The position numbers and the translations under genes were made by a program. This document shows positions 13,853 through 48,764 of a stretch of 64,000 bases of DNA, one piece after another (positions within the stretch are counted from its first letter, which is position 1; every line of letters starts with the position of its first letter). The notes under the pieces are model-generated. The model was not told where the DNA came from, ran no database searches, and was given only the letters and a program-made list of their open reading frames with translations. The stretch covers positions 3,431,206-3,495,205 of the forward strand of contig NZ_CP018477.1 of assembly GCF_002277955.1 (NCBI RefSeq), read 5' to 3'. The stretch is from Thermogutta terrifontis. GTDB lineage: Bacteria > Planctomycetota > Planctomycetia > Pirellulales > Thermoguttaceae.

Positions 13853-14246
13853 AGGTTAAAAGTACAGCACGTGTTACGGGATCTCTGCCTTCAAGTCGGG
13901 GTAATTGGCACTCTGTCAAGATTTTCCATCTTGGAAAGTGGCGAAAGAGAGTTCAAGAGGAGCCGTTGCTGACCCCGTCCCCATTTTTGCGCAAACGCGA
14001 GAGATGGCACGGGCGAAACGTGTTGTAAGGGCAATTCAGAAATTGTCCTTACCGTCCGTTTATTCGGAGGGGCACGCTTGTCGTGCCCAACCTAAGGCAA
14101 TACATGACTCAACGCTGGAAAGCGCACGCGACAAGCTGGTGCCTCCGAGCTGACTCTCACTCCCACGCGAACCCTTCTGGTTGTTTGCGACCCCGTCGGC
14201 AGAGAAAAAGCGGGGATGAGTCAGGAGCCGTTGGAGGCGACATCAT
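13853..14246. repeat. Intergenic with fragments of the dispersed repeat family
   Basis: Contains an inverted GTTTGCGCAAAAATGGGG-type module at about 13974-14010, a TTCGGAGGGGCACGCTTGTCGTGCCC hairpin at 14064-14088 and a GAAAAAGCGGGGATGAGTC module at 14204-14222. No gene is evident. Confidence 0.55.
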
Positions 14247-31544: not shown

Positions 31545-34454
31545 ATGATCGAGGGTAACGAGAGAACCGGCACGCCTTCGCAACAGCCGCCAGCGGCAAA
31601 GCCCGTTCGGCTGGAAGAACAGCCGACGGTGATCACCCCGCCCGAGGCGCTGGTGCCTGTCTCGTCGCCGGAAATCGGCGTGGAAATCCTCACGCCCAAA
31701 GTCAGCCCGGGAGCGACGCTTGGCCCCTACGAGATCCTGGAATATATCGGTGGCGGGGGGATGGGCCGGGTATTTCGGGCGTTCGACGTCCGTCTTTCCC
31801 GGGTCGTGGCGCTGAAGGTGCTCACACCGGAGCAGGCTGCGGACGCTCAAACCCTGGCGAGATTCCAAAACGAAGCCCGATCTGCCGCCCGATTAAACCA
31901 TCCGGGCATCGTGCAGGTCTATGCGGCGGGCGAGCAGGATGGGGTTCACTACATTGCCTTCGAGTTCATCGAGGGCACCAACCTGCGGAAGCTGGTGGAA
32001 GAAAAGGGGCCGCTCCCCTGGGTGGATGCCGTGCGTTACATCCTCCAGGTGGCCGAGGCTCTCGATCATGCGAGCAAACGCGGGGTCATTCATCGGGATA
32101 TCAAACCGTCCAATGTCATCGTGACGCATGAGGGCCAGGCCAAATTAATTGACCTGGGCCTGGCACGGGTTTATCAGCCCGGCGGGCGAGCGCAGGATTT
32201 AACCAGCAGTGGCACAACTTTGGGAACATTTGATTACATCGCGCCGGAACAAGCGCGAGACCCTCGACTGGCAGATGTCCGTAGCGATATCTATTCTCTG
32301 GGGTGTACCCTTTACTTTCTGCTCACGGGGCAGCCTCCGTTTCCGGGCGGCACGGTGCTCCAGAAGCTCCTCCAGCATCAGACAGAAGACCCCGTGGATG
32401 TTCGCAAGATCCGCAAGGACGTTCCCGAAAGTCTCACTCGGATTCTGCGGCGGATGATGGCCAAATCGCCGCGGCAGCGATTTCAGTCGGCAGCGGAACT
32501 GGCTGCGGCTCTTCGCGAATTGATCGGCGAGAGCGAACGGCCGTTTCGAGCTGGAAACGGCAAGGCTGGCAGGAACGGAAAGGAACTTCGCTGGCGACGA
32601 CATCTGCCATGGGTGGTGCCCCTGGTAACTCTGCTCCTCACCACGCTTTTCATTGACTGGTGGTTTTCCCACGGTGCCGAGGAATTAGATCTGACGGGCG
32701 ATGAGGTGAGTACACCGCTCGAATTATTCTCACCTCCCACGCCGGCCTTCAGGGTTGATGCGGGATCGTCGACGGGAGAGACGTCCAAACGAACACCGGG
32801 TAGCGATTCCGCGACGTCGAGTCCGCAAGGCCAGGGATCGCAAAACCCCACGATCCACACAGCTCCTCGTGAGGTATCAGAACCGTCATCCCGTACGGAT
32901 TCGGCGACCCCCAGGTCTGGTGTGTCAAGCGAGGGGGCATCGGTACCCAGCCTCACGGATCCGCTAAGCCCAGGTTCGGCATCGGGATTATCGAAGCCGT
33001 CCCCCGATTTTAACCCAGGTAGCATCAGCCCCGTACCTGGCGTGTTGGGGGGCGACCCTCGTCATTTTCTCGGAGCGTCTTCCCTATCGGAGAGCGGCCT
33101 GGCGATTCCCCGGGCCGTTCCGCCTGATATGCCGCTGCTGGTTCCGCAAACAAATCGGTCCGCAGAACTGTCCGACGAAAGCCCGACGCGAGGAGGTCTG
33201 CTGCCGTTTTCAGCCGCGGTCAATGCCCAGCGTGAAATTCCAGCGGACCAGAAGTTCACCACGCCGAGCGCGTGGATCAGGTGGGTTGATCCCATGGGCC
33301 GCCGGGAAGGCAGTTTCCCGACTTTAGAAGCGGCCTGTCGCGCGGCTTTGCCCGGGGATGAGATCCGTTTGGATTTCGACGGAACACTGCTCGAACGGTC
33401 GCTGGACCTGCGAGGCCGGCGGCTGAAAATTGTCGGTGAACGGGGACGCTGGCCGGAGCTTGTCTTCCGCATGGACGATCGCAATGGGGCGACTTCAGAG
33501 AGTTTTGTATTGCTCGCCGCGTCGGATATCGGCTTCGAGAACGTCGGGCTGCGATTCGAAGTCAAGGGACAAAATGCGGCACGGGGATTTGCGTGTTTTC
33601 AGATGGTTCGGAATTCTCGTGTCACGTTCACGAACTGTGTTTTGACGCTTATCCTGGACGAGAACCGATCGTCGATGGTGGCCACTTCAGCAGCCCCCGT
33701 TGTGTTCGAGGCCACGGATGATCCGCAAAGCGAAATTCTGGTGAAGGCTCTGACCTCTGACCTGGAGCAGTCAACGGCCGGCAACATGATCGAAGTGAAG
33801 CAATCCGTCTTGCGCGGCCAGGGCGGAGTCCTCCGCACTCTGGGGGTTCGAGGAGGAGAATTGCGCATCGCCGAGTCACTTATCGCCGTTGACGGCAGGT
33901 TGTTGGATGTTGCGGGAACAGACCGCACACCTGAGACTGGCGCGCAGTGGAAAGTTGCGTTGCAACGGGTAACAGCCTTCTGCCGTCAGGGACTCTGTCG
34001 CCAGAGGGTCACCGCCTATCAGTGGCATCTGCTTCCGGTTCGGGTAGAAAGCCAGGCCAGCATCTTTGTGGCTGCCCGGGATGCCAGTTTCATCGAGCAG
34101 GTCGGGATGTCGCTGGAAAAGGCACTGCGATCATTTTCGTGGTTCGGGCAGGATAACTTTTATGAAACGTTCACCCGATTCTGGTCCATTACACCCGGCG
34201 AGCCGGGTTCTAATGTGTTCTATGTGTCATTTGAATCGTGGATGAGCTACTGGCGGTTGGATCATGAACAGAATCCTGCGTACGGGGCGATTCCGTGGCG
34301 CAGTCCACTCCCGTTGACCAAGCCCGCCTACCTCCATCAGCCTTCTGACTATCGTCTGGCGGACCCCTCCGTCGATGACGTGGCCGCCGAGATTGCGGGA
34401 AAAATAGGCTGTCCGGTGGACAACCTGCCTAGCCTTCCGAAGTCTCTTCCTTGA
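31545..34454 (+). CDS. Membrane Ser/Thr protein kinase with large extracytoplasmic domain
   Basis: 969 aa from ATG 31545. The kinase domain spans ~65-330: glycine loop YIGGGGMGRVFRA, VVALKVL lysine, HRDIKPSNVIV (catalytic Asp near 183), a DLG in place of DFG (LIDLGLARV), GTFDYIAPEQA and SDIYSLGCTLYFLLTGQPPF. A single TM (WVVPLVTLLLTTLFIDWWF) lies at ~355-375. A Ser/Thr/Pro-rich spacer leads to a ~350-residue outer region of short repeated strands (LDLRGRRLKIVGERG, NVGLRFEVKG, SRVTFTNCVLTLI, LRIAESLIAVDGRLLDVAG), which reads like a right-handed beta-helix of the pectate-lyase/NosD kind. This is the receptor-like kinase layout common in planctomycetes; ligand unknown. Confidence 0.88.
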   Translation: MIEGNERTGTPSQQPPAAKPVRLEEQPTVITPPEALVPVSSPEIGVEILTPKVSPGATLGPYEILEYIGGGGMGRVFRAFDVRLSRVVALKVLTPEQAADAQTLARFQNEARSAARLNHPGIVQVYAAGEQDGVHYIAFEFIEGTNLRKLVEEKGPLPWVDAVRYILQVAEALDHASKRGVIHRDIKPSNVIVTHEGQAKLIDLGLARVYQPGGRAQDLTSSGTTLGTFDYIAPEQARDPRLADVRSDIYSLGCTLYFLLTGQPPFPGGTVLQKLLQHQTEDPVDVRKIRKDVPESLTRILRRMMAKSPRQRFQSAAELAAALRELIGESERPFRAGNGKAGRNGKELRWRRHLPWVVPLVTLLLTTLFIDWWFSHGAEELDLTGDEVSTPLELFSPPTPAFRVDAGSSTGETSKRTPGSDSATSSPQGQGSQNPTIHTAPREVSEPSSRTDSATPRSGVSSEGASVPSLTDPLSPGSASGLSKPSPDFNPGSISPVPGVLGGDPRHFLGASSLSESGLAIPRAVPPDMPLLVPQTNRSAELSDESPTRGGLLPFSAAVNAQREIPADQKFTTPSAWIRWVDPMGRREGSFPTLEAACRAALPGDEIRLDFDGTLLERSLDLRGRRLKIVGERGRWPELVFRMDDRNGATSESFVLLAASDIGFENVGLRFEVKGQNAARGFACFQMVRNSRVTFTNCVLTLILDENRSSMVATSAAPVVFEATDDPQSEILVKALTSDLEQSTAGNMIEVKQSVLRGQGGVLRTLGVRGGELRIAESLIAVDGRLLDVAGTDRTPETGAQWKVALQRVTAFCRQGLCRQRVTAYQWHLLPVRVESQASIFVAARDASFIEQVGMSLEKALRSFSWFGQDNFYETFTRFWSITPGEPGSNVFYVSFESWMSYWRLDHEQNPAYGAIPWRSPLPLTKPAYLHQPSDYRLADPSVDDVAAEIAGKIGCPVDNLPSLPKSLP

Positions 34455-34552
34455 TTGCGCGTAGCCTGTTCGGTCACTTGGCCGATAGAAACGGACCCGA
34501 CGCGCACGTCCCACCGAATCCGGACCTGACAAGCACGTGCCTTCGGAAAAAC

Positions 34553-35301
34553 GGACCTGACAAGCAGGTCCCTCCGAGAAATCGTTCGGAGGGGCACGCC
34601 TGTCGTGGCCGGTGTGAGTTAGTCATATCACGGCGTCAGCTTTGGTAGGGGCAATTCATGAATTGCCCCTACCGTTGAACCCTTGTCGTGCCCACAGAAT
34701 GAAAGGGCTCATTAAGAGTCAAAAAAACGGACCTGACAAGCAGGTCCCTCCGAGAAATCGTTCGGAGGGGCACGCCTGTCGTGCCCGCGGAACGAGATGG
34801 ATATGGATTATCAACGCTCAAAAAAACAGACCGGACGAGCAGGTCCCTCCAATTATGCGGACCTCCATTGTGTGGATTGGAGGGTCGGGTTCCACCCCGA
34901 CCGGTCATCGTCGTTCCATCCGGGCCGATGGCAAGGTGGTGAAGGCTAAAGCCTTCACCGAAAAGCGGTGATGAATCGCCGCACTCCATGGAGTGCGGGG
35001 CTTTAGCCCCGCTTTCGGCGCGGGACTTCAGTCCCCGCCGAAAGGCAATGAATGATCGAACCCCGAATCACGGACCCGACAAGCGAGTCCCTCCGAGAAA
35101 TCGTTCGGAGGGGCACGCTCGTCGTGCCCGCGGAACGGCTATGGATTATCCGTAATAGGAAAGCGGACCTGACAGGCAGGTCCCTCCGACCCGGAGGGGC
35201 ACGCTTGTCGTGCCCACGAAGAGGCAAATGAGCATCCGTCGTGGAAAAGCGGACCTGACGAGCAGGTCCCTCCGACCCGGAGGGGCACGCTTGTCGTGCT
35301 C
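34553..35301 (+). repeat. Array of triple-hairpin repeats plus other palindromes
   Basis: Copies start at 34553, 34729, 34831 (variant), 35072, 35165 and 35251. A full unit has three hairpins: GGACCTG-acaag-CAGGTCC, CTCCGA-gaaatcgt-TCGGAG (shortened to CTCCGACCCGGAG in the last two) and GGGCACG-cytgt-CGTGCCC. The unit as a whole is also an imperfect inverted repeat with arms of about 25 bp. Between copies lie GGTGAAGGCTAAAGCCTTCACC (34938-34959), GCACTCCATGGAGTGC (34981-34996), GCGGGGCTTTAGCCCCGC (34995-35012) and a further stem at 35016-35040. No gene is present in 34455-35545. Confidence 0.85.
34645..34672. repeat. Perfect 28-bp palindrome (solo first module of the dispersed repeat)
   Basis: GTAGGGGCAATTCATGAATT followed by GCCCCTAC reads identically on both strands. 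It is the best-preserved copy of the palindromic module also seen at 27862, 41687, 48685 and 52489. Confidence 0.85.
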
Positions 35302-35545
35302 GTGGAAACTGTTGTTCAGATTCGCGTTCGACTGCGGTCGCAACTGGCCGATGTAAACCCAGCGGTGCTATAATAAGCTAAGAAAAGGCGGTTGGAAATT
35401 GACGCTTCGAGCTTTCACAAACTCTGTGTGGAATCTGCCCATCAAACGCAGCTTGTCCAGGGTGAAGGGGCGAGAAAACGCTGTCGCGGGACGGGTGGGA
35501 GGAACGCGACCAGGGGTGGCTCGAACATGAGGAAACATTGCAGTG

Positions 35546-38500
35546 ATGAGCCGAGCGGTTGCTGACGTCCGACCTTTGCCACCGCCTCCCCCGGAGGCGA
35601 ATTTGCCGCCTGAGGATGAGGAGGTCCTGATCCTCAGACAGGTTGAAACGACGCGTCGCAAGATCGCAACGGTCGAGATTGTCTGGCGATCGCTGGCGCT
35701 TGTAGCGGGGATGATTGCTTACGGCCTTCTGGCCGCCGTGGTGGATCAGTGGATTTATCCCCACGGAATGCCCACCGCGGTGCGTTGGCTTCTGTGGATC
35801 GTTTTTGTCCTGGCGACTGTTGGTTGGATCATCCTCTCCCTGGGGCCTTATCTTGTCCGCCGAATTCATCCCGTCTTTGCCGCCTACCAGGTGGAACAGG
35901 CGGTTCCCACTCTCAAACACTCGCTGATCAGCTTTCTTCTGTTGCGAGGGGAAAAAGACGCCCTGCGGAGCGATCCGCTCAAGCTGAATGTGTTTCGCGG
36001 TCTGGAGCGGAACACCGCGCAGCAGGTGTCGCAGGTATCGCCAGAGGTCGTCGTGGATCGATCGGCGATCCTCCGCACAGGTTATGTCCTGATCGCGTTG
36101 ATAGCGATTTTTGCCCTGCTTGTGCTCTTGTCGCCCAAGAATCCCCTGGTGTCGGCCGCGCGCGCCGTTCTTCCCTGGAGCCATATCTCTCCCCCGAGCC
36201 GGGTGAAAATTGAAGTGGTCCAGCCGGGCACCGCGGAGGTCCTTCAGGGGGACCGCGTTGTCGTTTCGGCGTTGATTCAGGGATTACGGGAAGGGGAGGG
36301 AGCTCGCGTTGTGTATTCCACGGCCGACGGCCAGGCGGTCGATCAGGTTATTCCCCTTCAGCCGGTTGCGGATAAGCCGGGACGCTACGAATGCGAATTG
36401 TCGCCATCCATCCAGCAGAATACGACCTATCGCGTGACGGCGGGGGATGCCGTCACTCCCGACTACCATCTCACGGTCGTAACACCCCTTCGCGTGAGAA
36501 TCCACAAGATTGAATACCAATTTCCCGCTTACACCAAGCTCGAGCCGCGCGTGGTGGAAAACCTGGGCGACATCCAGGCGATCGAAGGAACGGAGGTGAC
36601 CATCCACGCGGAGGCTCCTGAACCCTTGCGGAGTGCCGAGATCACCATGGAGGGGGATCAACGGGGAACACTTCGCATGGTCGTGGAGGAAAAGCAGGCC
36701 CGGGCGGCCATGCGCTTGAGGCTCAACAAAGTGGGAAGCTCTCTGCGGGAATATTCCGTGTACTCGATCCGCGCGGAGAGTCGGGATGGTCGGCCGAGCG
36801 TGGACCCCGTCAAGTACACGATCGAAGTCATTCCAGACATGCCTCCTGCCGCCCGATGGGAGTCGCCTCGCGAGACCCGCGTGACCGTGCCGGTCAACGG
36901 AAGTCTTCCGCTGAGGTTAAGGGCAGAGGATCCCGACTTCGGGCTCCAGCAAATCGTGCTCACCATTGAATCGCTGGGGAAGAAAGTCACTCAGGAGATC
37001 CTGCTGGACAGAGCCAAAGGAGATGCCTACAGAGGGGAGTTTTCTGGGGAGTATCTCTTTGTCCCGAGCAAACTTGGTTTGGCCACAGGGGATCTCGCGC
37101 TGTGTCGGGTCGAGGTCGCGGACAATCGGGAACCGACATCCAATCTTGTCAAGCTGCCGGAACTGGAAATCCACATCGGACCGGCCGAACAGGGAGCCGA
37201 GTCGCGATCGGCGGAATCCCAGCAGAAGTCTACGGCAGAGCGAAATGAAAAACCGGGGCAATCGCCCCCGGATAAAGGTTCGGGACAGGCGCAACCTCCG
37301 AGCCCTCTGGGAGAACAGCCGCCCGCCAAACCCAATCCACCGGGTCAGCCACCAGAACAATCTCGATCGCCGGACTCAGCTCGCCAGCCGGAGAGTTTTG
37401 ATCAACCGAATCAGCAAAACCAGCCGAACCAGCCGGGTCAGATGCAGTCTTCCCAACAGGCAACAGAGGGATCGACCCCGCAGTCCTCAGCAGACCAGCC
37501 ATCTTCGTCGGGTGAATCCTCGAGTGCGCAGCCTTCCGCTCAATCCGGCCAGCAGGCAAATCAGAAAAATGCCGAGCAGCCAGCCCAGGGGCAGCAGTCA
37601 GGTGCGTCGGACCCGCAAATCGGCACCAATCCTCCCGCTCAGGGACAGAACGGAAAGGCGGACAATCCTGGATCCGGTGAGTCTCAAGCTGGTTCGCAAG
37701 GCGGCAATGGCAAAGACTCGCAAGGAACGAAAGACGGGCAGGGACAGTCGGGCGACATGACTGGCACGTCGGGGAAACGGGCGGCAGGTGCCTCCGCTCA
37801 AGAGTCGGGAAGTTCGCCGCAGCCGACTGATCAGCGATCGGATTCCCGCGAACGGACAAGCAACGGCATGCAAAAAGGAGATGCTGGTGAACAGACCATC
37901 GGGGCCGGCCAAAATCAGACGCAGGGGAAAAGCGGCGAGCGCCAATCGGCGGTGAATGAAGGAACCAATCCGGATAAAGCCAATTCTCCCGAGGCGGGGA
38001 TGAAGGAAGGACACCCGCAAGGGGAATCCGGGACCGCTGGGGCAGCGCAGTCGCGGGGAAACGGCACCGAGCAGACCGGCTCTGGCAAGCCTGGTGCGTC
38101 AGAAGCATCACAACAGTCCGGGGGTTCTGGAACGGGTCAGAACAACCCGGGAGCGGAACCGGGGTTGCCCAACCGAGGTGCCGGGGAGGGAACTCAACCG
38201 GGGGCAATGGCATCTCAGGGCGGAAGCGCGAGAGCCGGGGAGGGAAATAGCGAGCAGTTTTCCGGAGGAAAGGGCTCGGACGGCAGCCAGCGGCAGGACA
38301 AGATCGACGGGATATCAAATCCGGGAGATGCCATTGAAAGAATTCTGAAGTACCTGGAGCGCAGCGGCGCGGCAAAGCCCGATGGAGCGGCTTCGGGAGC
38401 TCAGACTCAGGGCTCGCAAACGGCAACCGCAAATGAGCAGCCGCCGGGTTCGGGAGACCAGAGCACGCCGCCCACTTCCGAAGCGGGACAGCGATCTGGG

Positions 38501-39556
38501 AATCAGCAACAATCGGCGGAACGCTCGGCCGGGGCACAGTCAAACGGTCAGGCGGCTCAGCCCAATCGCGATTCGACGTCTGTCCCGGCCGGGCAATCAC
38601 CTGCTGCTGAAAGCAACCCGCAACCGACCAAGACGAACAACCAGCAGGGGGGTACCGCGTCGGCTCCGGCGAATTCCGGGATGGCACCTCCGCAAGGCGA
38701 TGCGGCACCGCGACAGACAGAGGGTGCTTCCAATACAGTCGCTAACCCTCCACAATCGAACCAGCAACATGCTGCACAAAATCGGGAAGGCGAAAGCGGC
38801 GAGCAAGCTGGTTTAGGCGGTCAGGGTGGTGGTCAACAGACGCCCGGGAAGGGGAGCGGCGCGGAGGGAAGTCAGTCTCCCGCTGACGGTCAAGGCGGAA
38901 ATCCCTCCCCGGGAACTGGACCGGAGGCATCGGCCTCGGCGGGAAGCAAGGCAGCGGGATCGGGCGGAAGTTCCCAGGGGGGACCAGGTACGAGTGGTGA
39001 TTCGAGCCGCGGTGCTCAAGGCGGTTCGCAAAGTTCCGCTCAAAGTTCTGAGACAGGTGGCGGTCAGCGGGCACCCAACAGTGCCCAATCGGGGAATGCT
39101 TCCCGCGGCGGTGGGCTTCCCGGCGGTGGGGCGGGCGGTGGAGGGGCCTGGCCTGGTACCGAAACCCCCGTTGACGATCCGAATCTCGAATTTGCCCGAC
39201 GGCAGACGGACCTCGTTCTGCGGTATCTGGAGGATCAGATCGCCCGGCAAAACCCCGATGAAAATCTTCTGAAAGAATTGGGCTGGACGAAAGAAGAAAT
39301 GGCCCAATTTGTAAGACGCTGGCAGGAATTGAAGAAGGCTGCGGAAGACGATACTCCCCGCGGTAAAGATGCCAAAAAGCGTTTGAACGAGATCCTCCGT
39401 AGTCTCGGATTGAGACCGAGTGGCACCGAAATCCGCCGCAATGAGAATCTTAGGGACACGGTGCACGGGCTGGAAGCCGGTCGGGACATTCCGCCGCCAC
39501 CCCAATGGAGTGATTACTTCCGAGAATACCTGAAATCTCTCGGGGCCGCTCAGTAA
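35546..39556 (+). CDS. Large membrane protein with ~650-residue Gln/Gly/Ser/Pro-rich segment
   Basis: 1,336 aa from ATG 35546 (GTG 35543 is equally open). Three membrane segments lie at ~45-70, ~80-105 and ~178-200 (IVWRSLALVAGMIAYGLL; AVRWLLWIVFVLATVGWIIL; TGYVLIALIAIFALLVLL), followed by an Ig-like beta region to ~545 with repeats such as VLQGDRVVVSALIQG and GTEVTIHAEAPEP. From ~546 to ~1200 the chain is almost only Gln, Gly, Ser, Pro, Asn and Ala, without tandem periodicity. A compact helical C-terminus (LRYLEDQIARQNPDENLLKELGWTKEEMAQFVRRWQEL) ends near DYFREYLKSLG. The layout resembles the DUF4175-like membrane proteins often encoded near MoxR/DUF58 genes in planctomycetes; those neighbours are absent here. 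Function unknown. Confidence 0.8.
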   Translation: MSRAVADVRPLPPPPPEANLPPEDEEVLILRQVETTRRKIATVEIVWRSLALVAGMIAYGLLAAVVDQWIYPHGMPTAVRWLLWIVFVLATVGWIILSLGPYLVRRIHPVFAAYQVEQAVPTLKHSLISFLLLRGEKDALRSDPLKLNVFRGLERNTAQQVSQVSPEVVVDRSAILRTGYVLIALIAIFALLVLLSPKNPLVSAARAVLPWSHISPPSRVKIEVVQPGTAEVLQGDRVVVSALIQGLREGEGARVVYSTADGQAVDQVIPLQPVADKPGRYECELSPSIQQNTTYRVTAGDAVTPDYHLTVVTPLRVRIHKIEYQFPAYTKLEPRVVENLGDIQAIEGTEVTIHAEAPEPLRSAEITMEGDQRGTLRMVVEEKQARAAMRLRLNKVGSSLREYSVYSIRAESRDGRPSVDPVKYTIEVIPDMPPAARWESPRETRVTVPVNGSLPLRLRAEDPDFGLQQIVLTIESLGKKVTQEILLDRAKGDAYRGEFSGEYLFVPSKLGLATGDLALCRVEVADNREPTSNLVKLPELEIHIGPAEQGAESRSAESQQKSTAERNEKPGQSPPDKGSGQAQPPSPLGEQPPAKPNPPGQPPEQSRSPDSARQPESFDQPNQQNQPNQPGQMQSSQQATEGSTPQSSADQPSSSGESSSAQPSAQSGQQANQKNAEQPAQGQQSGASDPQIGTNPPAQGQNGKADNPGSGESQAGSQGGNGKDSQGTKDGQGQSGDMTGTSGKRAAGASAQESGSSPQPTDQRSDSRERTSNGMQKGDAGEQTIGAGQNQTQGKSGERQSAVNEGTNPDKANSPEAGMKEGHPQGESGTAGAAQSRGNGTEQTGSGKPGASEASQQSGGSGTGQNNPGAEPGLPNRGAGEGTQPGAMASQGGSARAGEGNSEQFSGGKGSDGSQRQDKIDGISNPGDAIERILKYLERSGAAKPDGAASGAQTQGSQTATANEQPPGSGDQSTPPTSEAGQRSGNQQQSAERSAGAQSNGQAAQPNRDSTSVPAGQSPAAESNPQPTKTNNQQGGTASAPANSGMAPPQGDAAPRQTEGASNTVANPPQSNQQHAAQNREGESGEQAGLGGQGGGQQTPGKGSGAEGSQSPADGQGGNPSPGTGPEASASAGSKAAGSGGSSQGGPGTSGDSSRGAQGGSQSSAQSSETGGGQRAPNSAQSGNASRGGGLPGGGAGGGGAWPGTETPVDDPNLEFARRQTDLVLRYLEDQIARQNPDENLLKELGWTKEEMAQFVRRWQELKKAAEDDTPRGKDAKKRLNEILRSLGLRPSGTEIRRNENLRDTVHGLEAGRDIPPPPQWSDYFREYLKSLGAAQ

Positions 39557-48440: not shown

Positions 48441-48764
48441 ATGCCTGAGCATCCCCACTTTTCTGCTACTGATAAGCGGCAGCGACCTGAACAATGCCTT
48501 GGGCAAGTGCAAGCTTCAGCCCGGAAGGAAGTGGTTGTCACGTCCGCTTGCCCAACTTGGATGATCCACCCCAATTCACCGGGCACGACAAGCGTGCCCC
48601 TCCGAAACGATTTCTCGGAGGGACCTGCTTGTCAGGTCCGCTTACCGACCTTGGATGCTCCACCCCCAATTTACTCCCGTTCCGGCAGGGGCCAGTCATG
48701 AATCTCTCCTATAAACTTTGCGCTTGTGGCATCTCATGAGTTTTTGCAAGAATCGGGATGGCTC
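48441..48764 (-). repeat. Cluster of dispersed repeat modules (48.5 kb)
   Basis: Reverse-oriented GGGGATG module at about 48441-48462; full reverse-oriented triple-hairpin unit at 48581-48639; plus-oriented composite palindromic copy at 48685-48764. The unit is flanked by two further related 28-bp stretches (GTCCGCTTGCCCAACTTGGATG at 48542 and GTCCGCTTACCGACCTTGGATG at 48637). No gene is present between 48345 and 49049. Confidence 0.7.

Follow-up and report, generated by a model that had tools for sequence, protein, structure and literature searches.

The window analysed here is a 64,000-nt stretch of the Thermogutta terrifontis genome, corresponding to positions 3431206-3495205 of one 4,810,751-bp contig (C1). 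A dense array of palindromes lies at 34493-35301 of the window, flanked on one side by a Ser/Thr kinase gene (31545-34454; Pkinase match of 168 bits) and on the other by a co-directional ORF of 1337 aa (35543-39556), for which no Pfam match was found at 0.001. The middle part of this ORF is long and rich in Gln, Ser, Gly and Pro. ORFs of 106-109 aa run over the palindromes at 34642-34989; if annotated, they are likely to be spurious genes. The array contains 13 half-units of a repeat named here family 1, interleaved with palindromes of other families. The region 34480-35310 contains ten perfect, non-overlapping hairpins with stems of 7 bp or more, whereas 300 dinucleotide shuffles averaged 0.45 and never exceeded 3. 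The DNA fold z-score of the array was -11.8, and none of 20 shuffles folded as well.

The initial annotation described six copies of a triple-hairpin unit, the first starting at 34553. Five of them are complete, each being a dimer of two half-units of different type (y and X, defined below) with their feet inside. In the first (34553-34610), the y half-unit lies at 34553-34571 on the minus strand and the X at 34592-34610 on the plus strand. The second dimer lies at 34729-34786, the next complete one (the fourth unit of the initial annotation) at 35072-35129, the following one, with a short spacer, at 35165-35215, and the final one at 35251-35301. The remaining copy, at 34828-34846, is a y half-unit on the minus strand with no adjoining X and no third hairpin. 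The array also extends further upstream than first described, since two decayed y half-units precede it on the minus strand (34493-34511 and 34522-34540, each with five of seven stem pairs). The additional palindromes noted earlier were confirmed. One, at 34644-34673, belongs to family 3 and has a double foot, with GTAG at either end; a palindrome of the same double-GTAG type was seen at about 1386-1414 of locus L335. The others form a family-2 cassette at 34938-35037, with hairpins at 34938-34959, 34965-34982, 34995-35012 and 35021-35037, the two middle ones having GGAGT feet directed toward each other. The intervals 35130-35164 and 35216-35250, both read on the plus strand, are copies of a conserved 35-bp core that connects an X to the next y as a feet-outside pair. 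Another core copy, at 35038-35071, links the family-2 cassette, which here takes the place of X, to the y at 35072. The window contains two further family-1 loci, one with two half-units (14070-14142) and one with three, arranged y-X-y (48527-48639).

Half-unit anatomy and distribution in the genome

Read on its own strand, a half-unit consists of a foot of sequence [T/C][C/T]GGAG, followed by a 7-bp stem with a 5-base loop and then a G. The foot has a sharp boundary, conservation falling off past position -6. The triple hairpin is made of two half-units placed face to face, and its middle 'hairpin' corresponds to the feet CTCCG and CGGAG paired over a short variable spacer. When the tetranucleotides immediately 5' of perfect hairpins (stems of 7 bp or more) were ranked by enrichment, without choosing any foot in advance, GGAG came first (359 cases, a 24-fold enrichment), the runner-up being enriched 5-fold. 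The family-1 foot is YGGAG, which is neither a GTAG-type nor a CGTC tag, the tags present on the REPs described so far.

Four stems predominate, namely GGGCACG, termed X, and GGACCTG, GGACCCG and GGACGTG, collectively termed y. Among 681 half-units, the most frequent loops were CTTGT (441), CTCGT (89) and CCTGT (62), and each of the three was found with all four stems; the conserved stems and variable loops first noticed in the array are therefore a property of the family throughout the genome. Compensatory changes were judged from a set of 473 copies in which the three variable stem pairs had been left free; the score of the relaxed scan described below already includes pairing. All three variable positions were paired in 400 of these copies; when the 3' arms were shuffled 1000 times, the number was 112 ± 9 and never above 143. 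Family 1 thus comprises stem sub-families with complementary changes, as REPs do, and the check for compensation proposed in the initial annotation gave a positive answer. The loops of the first and third hairpins of a unit are complementary, as had been pointed out, because the unit is an inverted repeat. Within a unit, the two loops carry the same variant no more often than after shuffling (70 of 126 pairs, compared with 76 ± 3.4), which rules out a selected loop-loop pairing.

A strict half-unit pattern was found at 658 places in the genome (332 on one strand and 326 on the other), while the reversed pattern gave 0+0. Another strict pattern gave 137+142 places, versus 8+8 when read backwards, and a BLAST search with the unit, in which 40 of 316 candidates were scored, yielded at least 97 matches. 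Family 1 is therefore a short palindrome of high copy number, as was to be checked, and the array is not a local curiosity. A relaxed scan, covering 1.664 Mb (0-0.8, 2.3-2.7 and 4.41-4.81 Mb, plus the window), detected 681 half-units, 668 after dropping overlaps. The 681 were distributed very unevenly (500, 20 and 143 in the three regions, respectively, and 18 in the window), so that density varies more than tenfold along the chromosome. According to a simple hexamer-scored ORF caller (ORFs of at least 90 aa), 636 of the 668 half-units are intergenic, 18 lie in predicted coding sequence and 14 could not be assigned, a placement outside genes that is typical of REPs.

The position of the half-units relative to genes bears on whether they might work at the RNA level, as terminators, exonuclease barriers or stable small RNAs at gene ends. 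The strong folding of the array (z -11.8) and the T-runs that follow three of its y stems would suit such a role, but both flanking genes lie on the other strand from the T-runs, and four terminator-like sites were counted where 1.6 ± 1.6 would be expected. Half-unit density was about 1.8 per kb between co-directional genes, 2.0 between divergent genes and 1.9 between convergent genes, and X was oriented along the gene strand in 48 cases and against it in 57. These values do not support the transcript barrier proposed in the initial annotation, and an RNA-level function in general is considered very improbable. An Rfam scan of 34300-35600 found no family at its gathering score, which rules out a known RNA family.

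A possible relation with replication was considered as well. In the 4.41-4.81 Mb region, X was biased toward one strand (30 copies versus 10); counted by clusters, the figures were 16 versus 9 there and 44 versus 44 in the 0-0.8 Mb region, and the idea of an X polarity linked to replication was dropped. Among the regions scanned, family-1 density is highest at 0-0.8 Mb and lowest at 2.3-2.7 Mb, the two ends of the contig being rich in copies. DnaA-domain matches were located at 2045204-2045665 (155 bits) and 4809487-4809921 (64 bits) of the contig. An origin-linked density was discarded too, the best DnaA match being at 2.045 Mb, the weaker one at 4.809 Mb, and the skew not simple.

Pairing of X and y hairpins and the mosaic with families 2 and 3

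Feet-inside pairs with a gap of up to 40 bp numbered 150, and all 140 that could be typed on both arms combined an X with a y; random pairing would give 48 ± 5 homodimers. Feet-outside pairs (gap of up to 60 bp) numbered 153, of which 144 of the 146 typed were X plus y. Of the feet-outside neighbours less than 200 bp apart, 109 of 174 were separated by exactly 35 bp. This spacer is a conserved and oriented core, present in 106 copies of exactly that length. Same-strand pairs (gap of up to 15 bp; 97 cases) were y-y in 88 instances and included an untyped hairpin in the other nine; none included an X. Of the 210 X hairpins, 106 were partnered on both sides and 28 on neither; a single partner was of the feet-inside kind in 37 and of the feet-outside kind in 39. 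Among 421 y hairpins, 161 had no partner of either kind. These partner counts indicate that the commonest module is y-X-core-y'. In half of the X hairpins (106/210), y flanks X on both sides, which is the BIME arrangement of two direct REPs with an inverted one between them.

This organization resembles that of the BIMEs of E. coli and Stenotrophomonas as described by Nunvar et al. (2010, PMC2817692), where REPs form clusters of alternating orientation, mostly intergenic, whose basic module is two direct REPs enclosing an inverted one. Those BIMEs also combine two REP types per cluster (Y and Z2 in E. coli) and show compensatory stem changes. Family 1 differs from the BIMEs of that account in its GGAG foot, in having no RAYT gene beside it, in its single X class with three interchangeable y alleles, and in its same-strand tandems, formed by y and never by X. 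The GTAG/CGTC REPs described by Di Nocera et al. (2013, PMC3733652) offer a similar parallel, being short tag-ended palindromes with stem sub-families that carry complementary changes, feet-inside (TT) and feet-outside (HH) dimers, heterodimers, and several families per genome. The tags that paper describes are GTAG, the degenerate GYAG, GYRG, GTRG, GTMG and GTGG, and CGTC, versus YGGAG in family 1; GTAG families are reported there from the PVC group. BIME architecture and HH/TT heterodimers are therefore known, while no match for the GGAG foot was found in the open-licence literature. No word starting with 'ggag' occurred in PMC3733652, PMC6006769, PMC12306157, PMC2817692 or PMC8266576, a search that longer strings would escape. 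No open-licence text was found uniting RAYT, GGAG and REP as whole words, or pairing Thermogutta with 'repetitive extragenic palindromic'.

REPINs consist of two inverted REPs enclosing a spacer. Family-1 dimers share this design and depart from it in that their arms are obligately different. The rule holds over hundreds of units, in which a single X class is combined with three y alleles that can replace one another, and there is no typed exception in 140 feet-inside pairs. Why REP dimers favour unlike arms is said in PMC3733652 to have no obvious explanation; since heterotypic units are present in two alignable species (see below), the rule is amenable to testing.

Family 1 is also closely associated with the other two palindrome families. 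The zone reaching up to 300 bp from family-1 clusters represents 28.7% of the intergenic sequence and holds 183 of the 187 intergenic elements of families 2 and 3. Considered separately, 124 of 124 elements of family 2 and 60 of 64 of family 3 fall in this zone, and 85 of 150 family-1 clusters have a family-2 or family-3 neighbour. The head side of the 421 y hairpins faces an X in 149 cases, the edge hairpin of a family-2 cassette in 66, as happens at 35072 in the window, and neither in 206. The family-2 pattern was present in nine of 60 relatives, and the family-3 pattern in five of 199 genomes of the phylum, that of T. terrifontis included.

Comparison with a second Thermogutta species

A search of 60 genomes with the strict pattern found, besides the 658 copies of T. 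terrifontis, 338 in the congener Thermogutta sp. MAG-77 and one each in two other genomes (G029 and G046). Family 1 was absent from the remaining 56 of the 60 genomes searched, which include two further congeners (G002 and G003). The reversed pattern, used as a control, gave one match across the 60 genomes (in G013). Likewise, among the best 80 of 118 matching stretches in the sequence collection, those with more than one match all came from Thermogutta sp. MAG-77; other organisms gave one match each, as might occur by chance.

At the locus of the array, the flanking genes of the two species are 80-85% identical, and MAG-77 has five half-units as opposed to 13 in T. terrifontis. In 25 aligned blocks containing 35 loci, 30 were occupied in both species, three only in MAG-77 and two only in T. 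terrifontis, although some of these five are at alignment ends or in poorly aligned sequence. None of the 25 blocks provided an empty site clean enough to show where a mobile element would begin and end, and a mobile unit with defined ends is therefore not proved. Indels of at least 18 bp numbered 58, of which 13 had well-aligned flanks; with two species only, they are unpolarised. Five of the 13 measured 29-32 bp, approximately one y unit, one of 93 bp corresponded to X-core-y, and one of 143 bp was a local duplication. The other six ranged from 18 to 304 bp, three of them without family-1 sequence.

Half-units that could be aligned one to one (86 cases) kept the same perfect named allele in 28 instances (16 X and 12 y). 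In 13, one perfect y allele had been replaced by another, with a flank identity of at least 0.7 in six of them, while the two switches between X and y both had poor flanks (0.55 and 0.36). Most of the others had a mismatch in one or both species. Of 602 stem pairs compared, 32 had changed while keeping pairing and 50 had changed and were non-Watson-Crick in at least one species. Together with the 13 y swaps, this indicates that stems are imperfectly guarded and that whole-allele replacement is frequent.

These results could reflect fossil repeats, seeded long ago by any mechanism and since then modified only by local gain and loss (recombination, slippage, gene conversion), with no transposase at present. 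The 30 of 35 loci shared by both species, the similarity of the well-flanked family-1 indels to tandem units or local duplications, and the lack of a detected RAYT in MAG-77 all fit this explanation. Even so, local processes do not account for hundreds of dispersed loci that obey one pairing rule. Stem pairing is still high (400/473), and allele switches preserve it, unless conversion copies intact units. On balance, we consider it unlikely that the repeats are fossils of this kind. A second alternative is that X-y pairs are sites bound or cut by a nucleoid organizer similar to gyrase or IHF and kept by selection, by analogy with E. coli BIMEs, to which both gyrase and IHF bind (PMC2817692). 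The arms are always different, as if two half-sites were needed, and most loci are conserved between the two species, but copy number within loci varies freely (13 versus 5 at the array), chromosomal density varies by a factor of more than ten, and two of the three congeners lack family 1. Maintenance by the host in this way seems rather improbable.

RAYT genes and their footed hairpins

The initial annotation proposed a REP/BIME-like element mobilized by a RAYT transposase, and suggested looking for such a gene. One was found intact at 896 kb. It encodes a protein of 195 aa with NHYH and W-H motifs that matched NF047646 with 83 bits (cut-off 80), PF01797 with 25.9 bits (cut-off 23) and the TnpA_REP structure 4er8 with an E value of 2e-7. 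A second match, at 3.677 Mb, is weaker (37 bits) and split; it has a WQ motif and contains, inside the gene, a double-foot GTAG palindrome related to family 3. Neither of the two adjoins family 1. The 896-kb gene is flanked by six family-2 hairpins of two stem types, all with GGAGT feet. A REPtron, in which a RAYT is flanked by the same REP, was thus not found for family 1, its place being taken by family 2 at 896 kb and by the GTAG double foot at 3.68 Mb. As for the congeners, no RAYT was detected in MAG-77, which has family 1 (its assembly is 96% complete, in 1120 contigs), while G002 and G003 gave Y1-type matches and have no family 1. The GGAGT-footed hairpins of two stem types that flank the RAYT gene (L031:1324-1911) form another heterotypic arrangement, seen in genome G016 (L337) too.

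The proposal is thus favoured by the many copies, the compensated stems and the presence of a RAYT gene, whereas the association of this gene with family 2 and the congener with no detected RAYT speak against it; mobilization is accordingly something we infer, from the shared foot and from the junctions of family 1 with family 2. We estimate at roughly two in three the probability that the array is a single instance of a BIME-like mosaic found across the genome and made of YGGAG-footed REPs spread by a RAYT-type transposase. Each REP would be a hairpin with a 5' YGGAG foot, and the usual module would be two y REPs around one inverted X REP, the 35-bp core joining X to one y or, alternatively, a y to a family-2 cassette. 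The REPs would have spread as non-autonomous elements through a single-strand transposase that reads the YGGAG foot, which may be the RAYT located beside family 2 or a relative now lost. At present, the arrays would be altered mainly through recombination or replication slippage.

The RAYT proteins themselves give some hints as to how the foot might be read. When the 896-kb RAYT was aligned to E. coli TnpA_REP (4er8), a His was found at the position of Q95, which follows the conserved Trp, and a Thr at that of Arg104; Q95 and R104 are described as being among the residues that contact GTAG in the E. coli protein (PMC6006769, PMC8266576). Frames were readable for 23 RAYTs from 42 loci (that of G016 was read apart from these). 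The residue after the Trp was Gln in 22 of them, the 896-kb RAYT being the only one with His. For 13 of the 22 WQ RAYTs, two or more of the flanking hairpins had a GTAG or GTGG foot. Two others (L144 and L146) had one GGAGT-footed hairpin each, and another (L145) had two GGAG-footed and two GTGG-footed hairpins. Matches to the 896-kb RAYT were found in 37 of 396 genomes of the order, nine loci showing at least 42% identity and the rest at most 34%. Five of these nine close loci contain an in-frame stop. The residue after the Trp, readable in seven of the nine, was H, H, W, H, D, Y or F, but never Q. Hairpins with GGAGT, GGACT or GGAAT feet were present beside seven of the nine (the T. terrifontis gene and six of its eight relatives) and absent from two. 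These seven loci are only partly the same as the seven with a readable residue; a non-Gln residue and a changed foot were observed together at five. One close locus (L347) has an additional GTAG-footed hairpin farther off.

These observations raise the tentative possibility that a branch of Planctomycetota RAYTs, having lost the Gln that touches the guide (Q95) and in the Thermogutta case Arg104 as well, now reads a guide altered from GTAG or GTGG to YGGAG or TYGGA. Such RAYTs would drive REPs of this type, family 1 included, the latter spreading as obligately heterotypic X-core-y units. If true, the coincidence of an altered foot with an altered residue at the guide-reading position would provide a handle on how RAYTs choose their REPs. 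The sequence common to the RAYT-flanking feet and family 1 is mostly TYGGA, so the guide may be either GGAG, adjoining the stem, or TYGG, at a short distance from it. The latter would be nearer to the Pseudomonas REPs with a GTGG-GA-stem arrangement described in PMC2817692, which likewise place GGAG against the stem or close to it, the corresponding four letters being GTGG there and TYGG here; this leaves room for a TYGG guide set back from the stem, and it is why the suggestion of a changed reading is not made more firmly. Also against a simple link between the lost Gln and the changed foot is TnpA_REP subclass 2.8 of Quentin et al. (2018, PMC6006769), which has W[YH] and is reported beside GT[AG]G REPs. 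The 896-kb RAYT resembles this subclass (NHYH, W-H and 195 aa, compared with NHYH, W[YH] and 199 aa), although the hairpins beside it and beside most of its close relatives have GGAGT, GGACT or GGAAT feet. The 3.68-Mb RAYT, which has a WQ motif and an internal GTAG REP of the double-foot kind, resembles subclass 2.4 of the same classification. One RAYT relative (L345, in G521) adjoins tandem palindromes with 13-bp stems built of fused GGAGT feet. A foot other than GTAG was also seen at a RAYT-like gene of G054 (L161, one of the 22 with WQ), whose flanks contain seven GGGG-footed hairpins.
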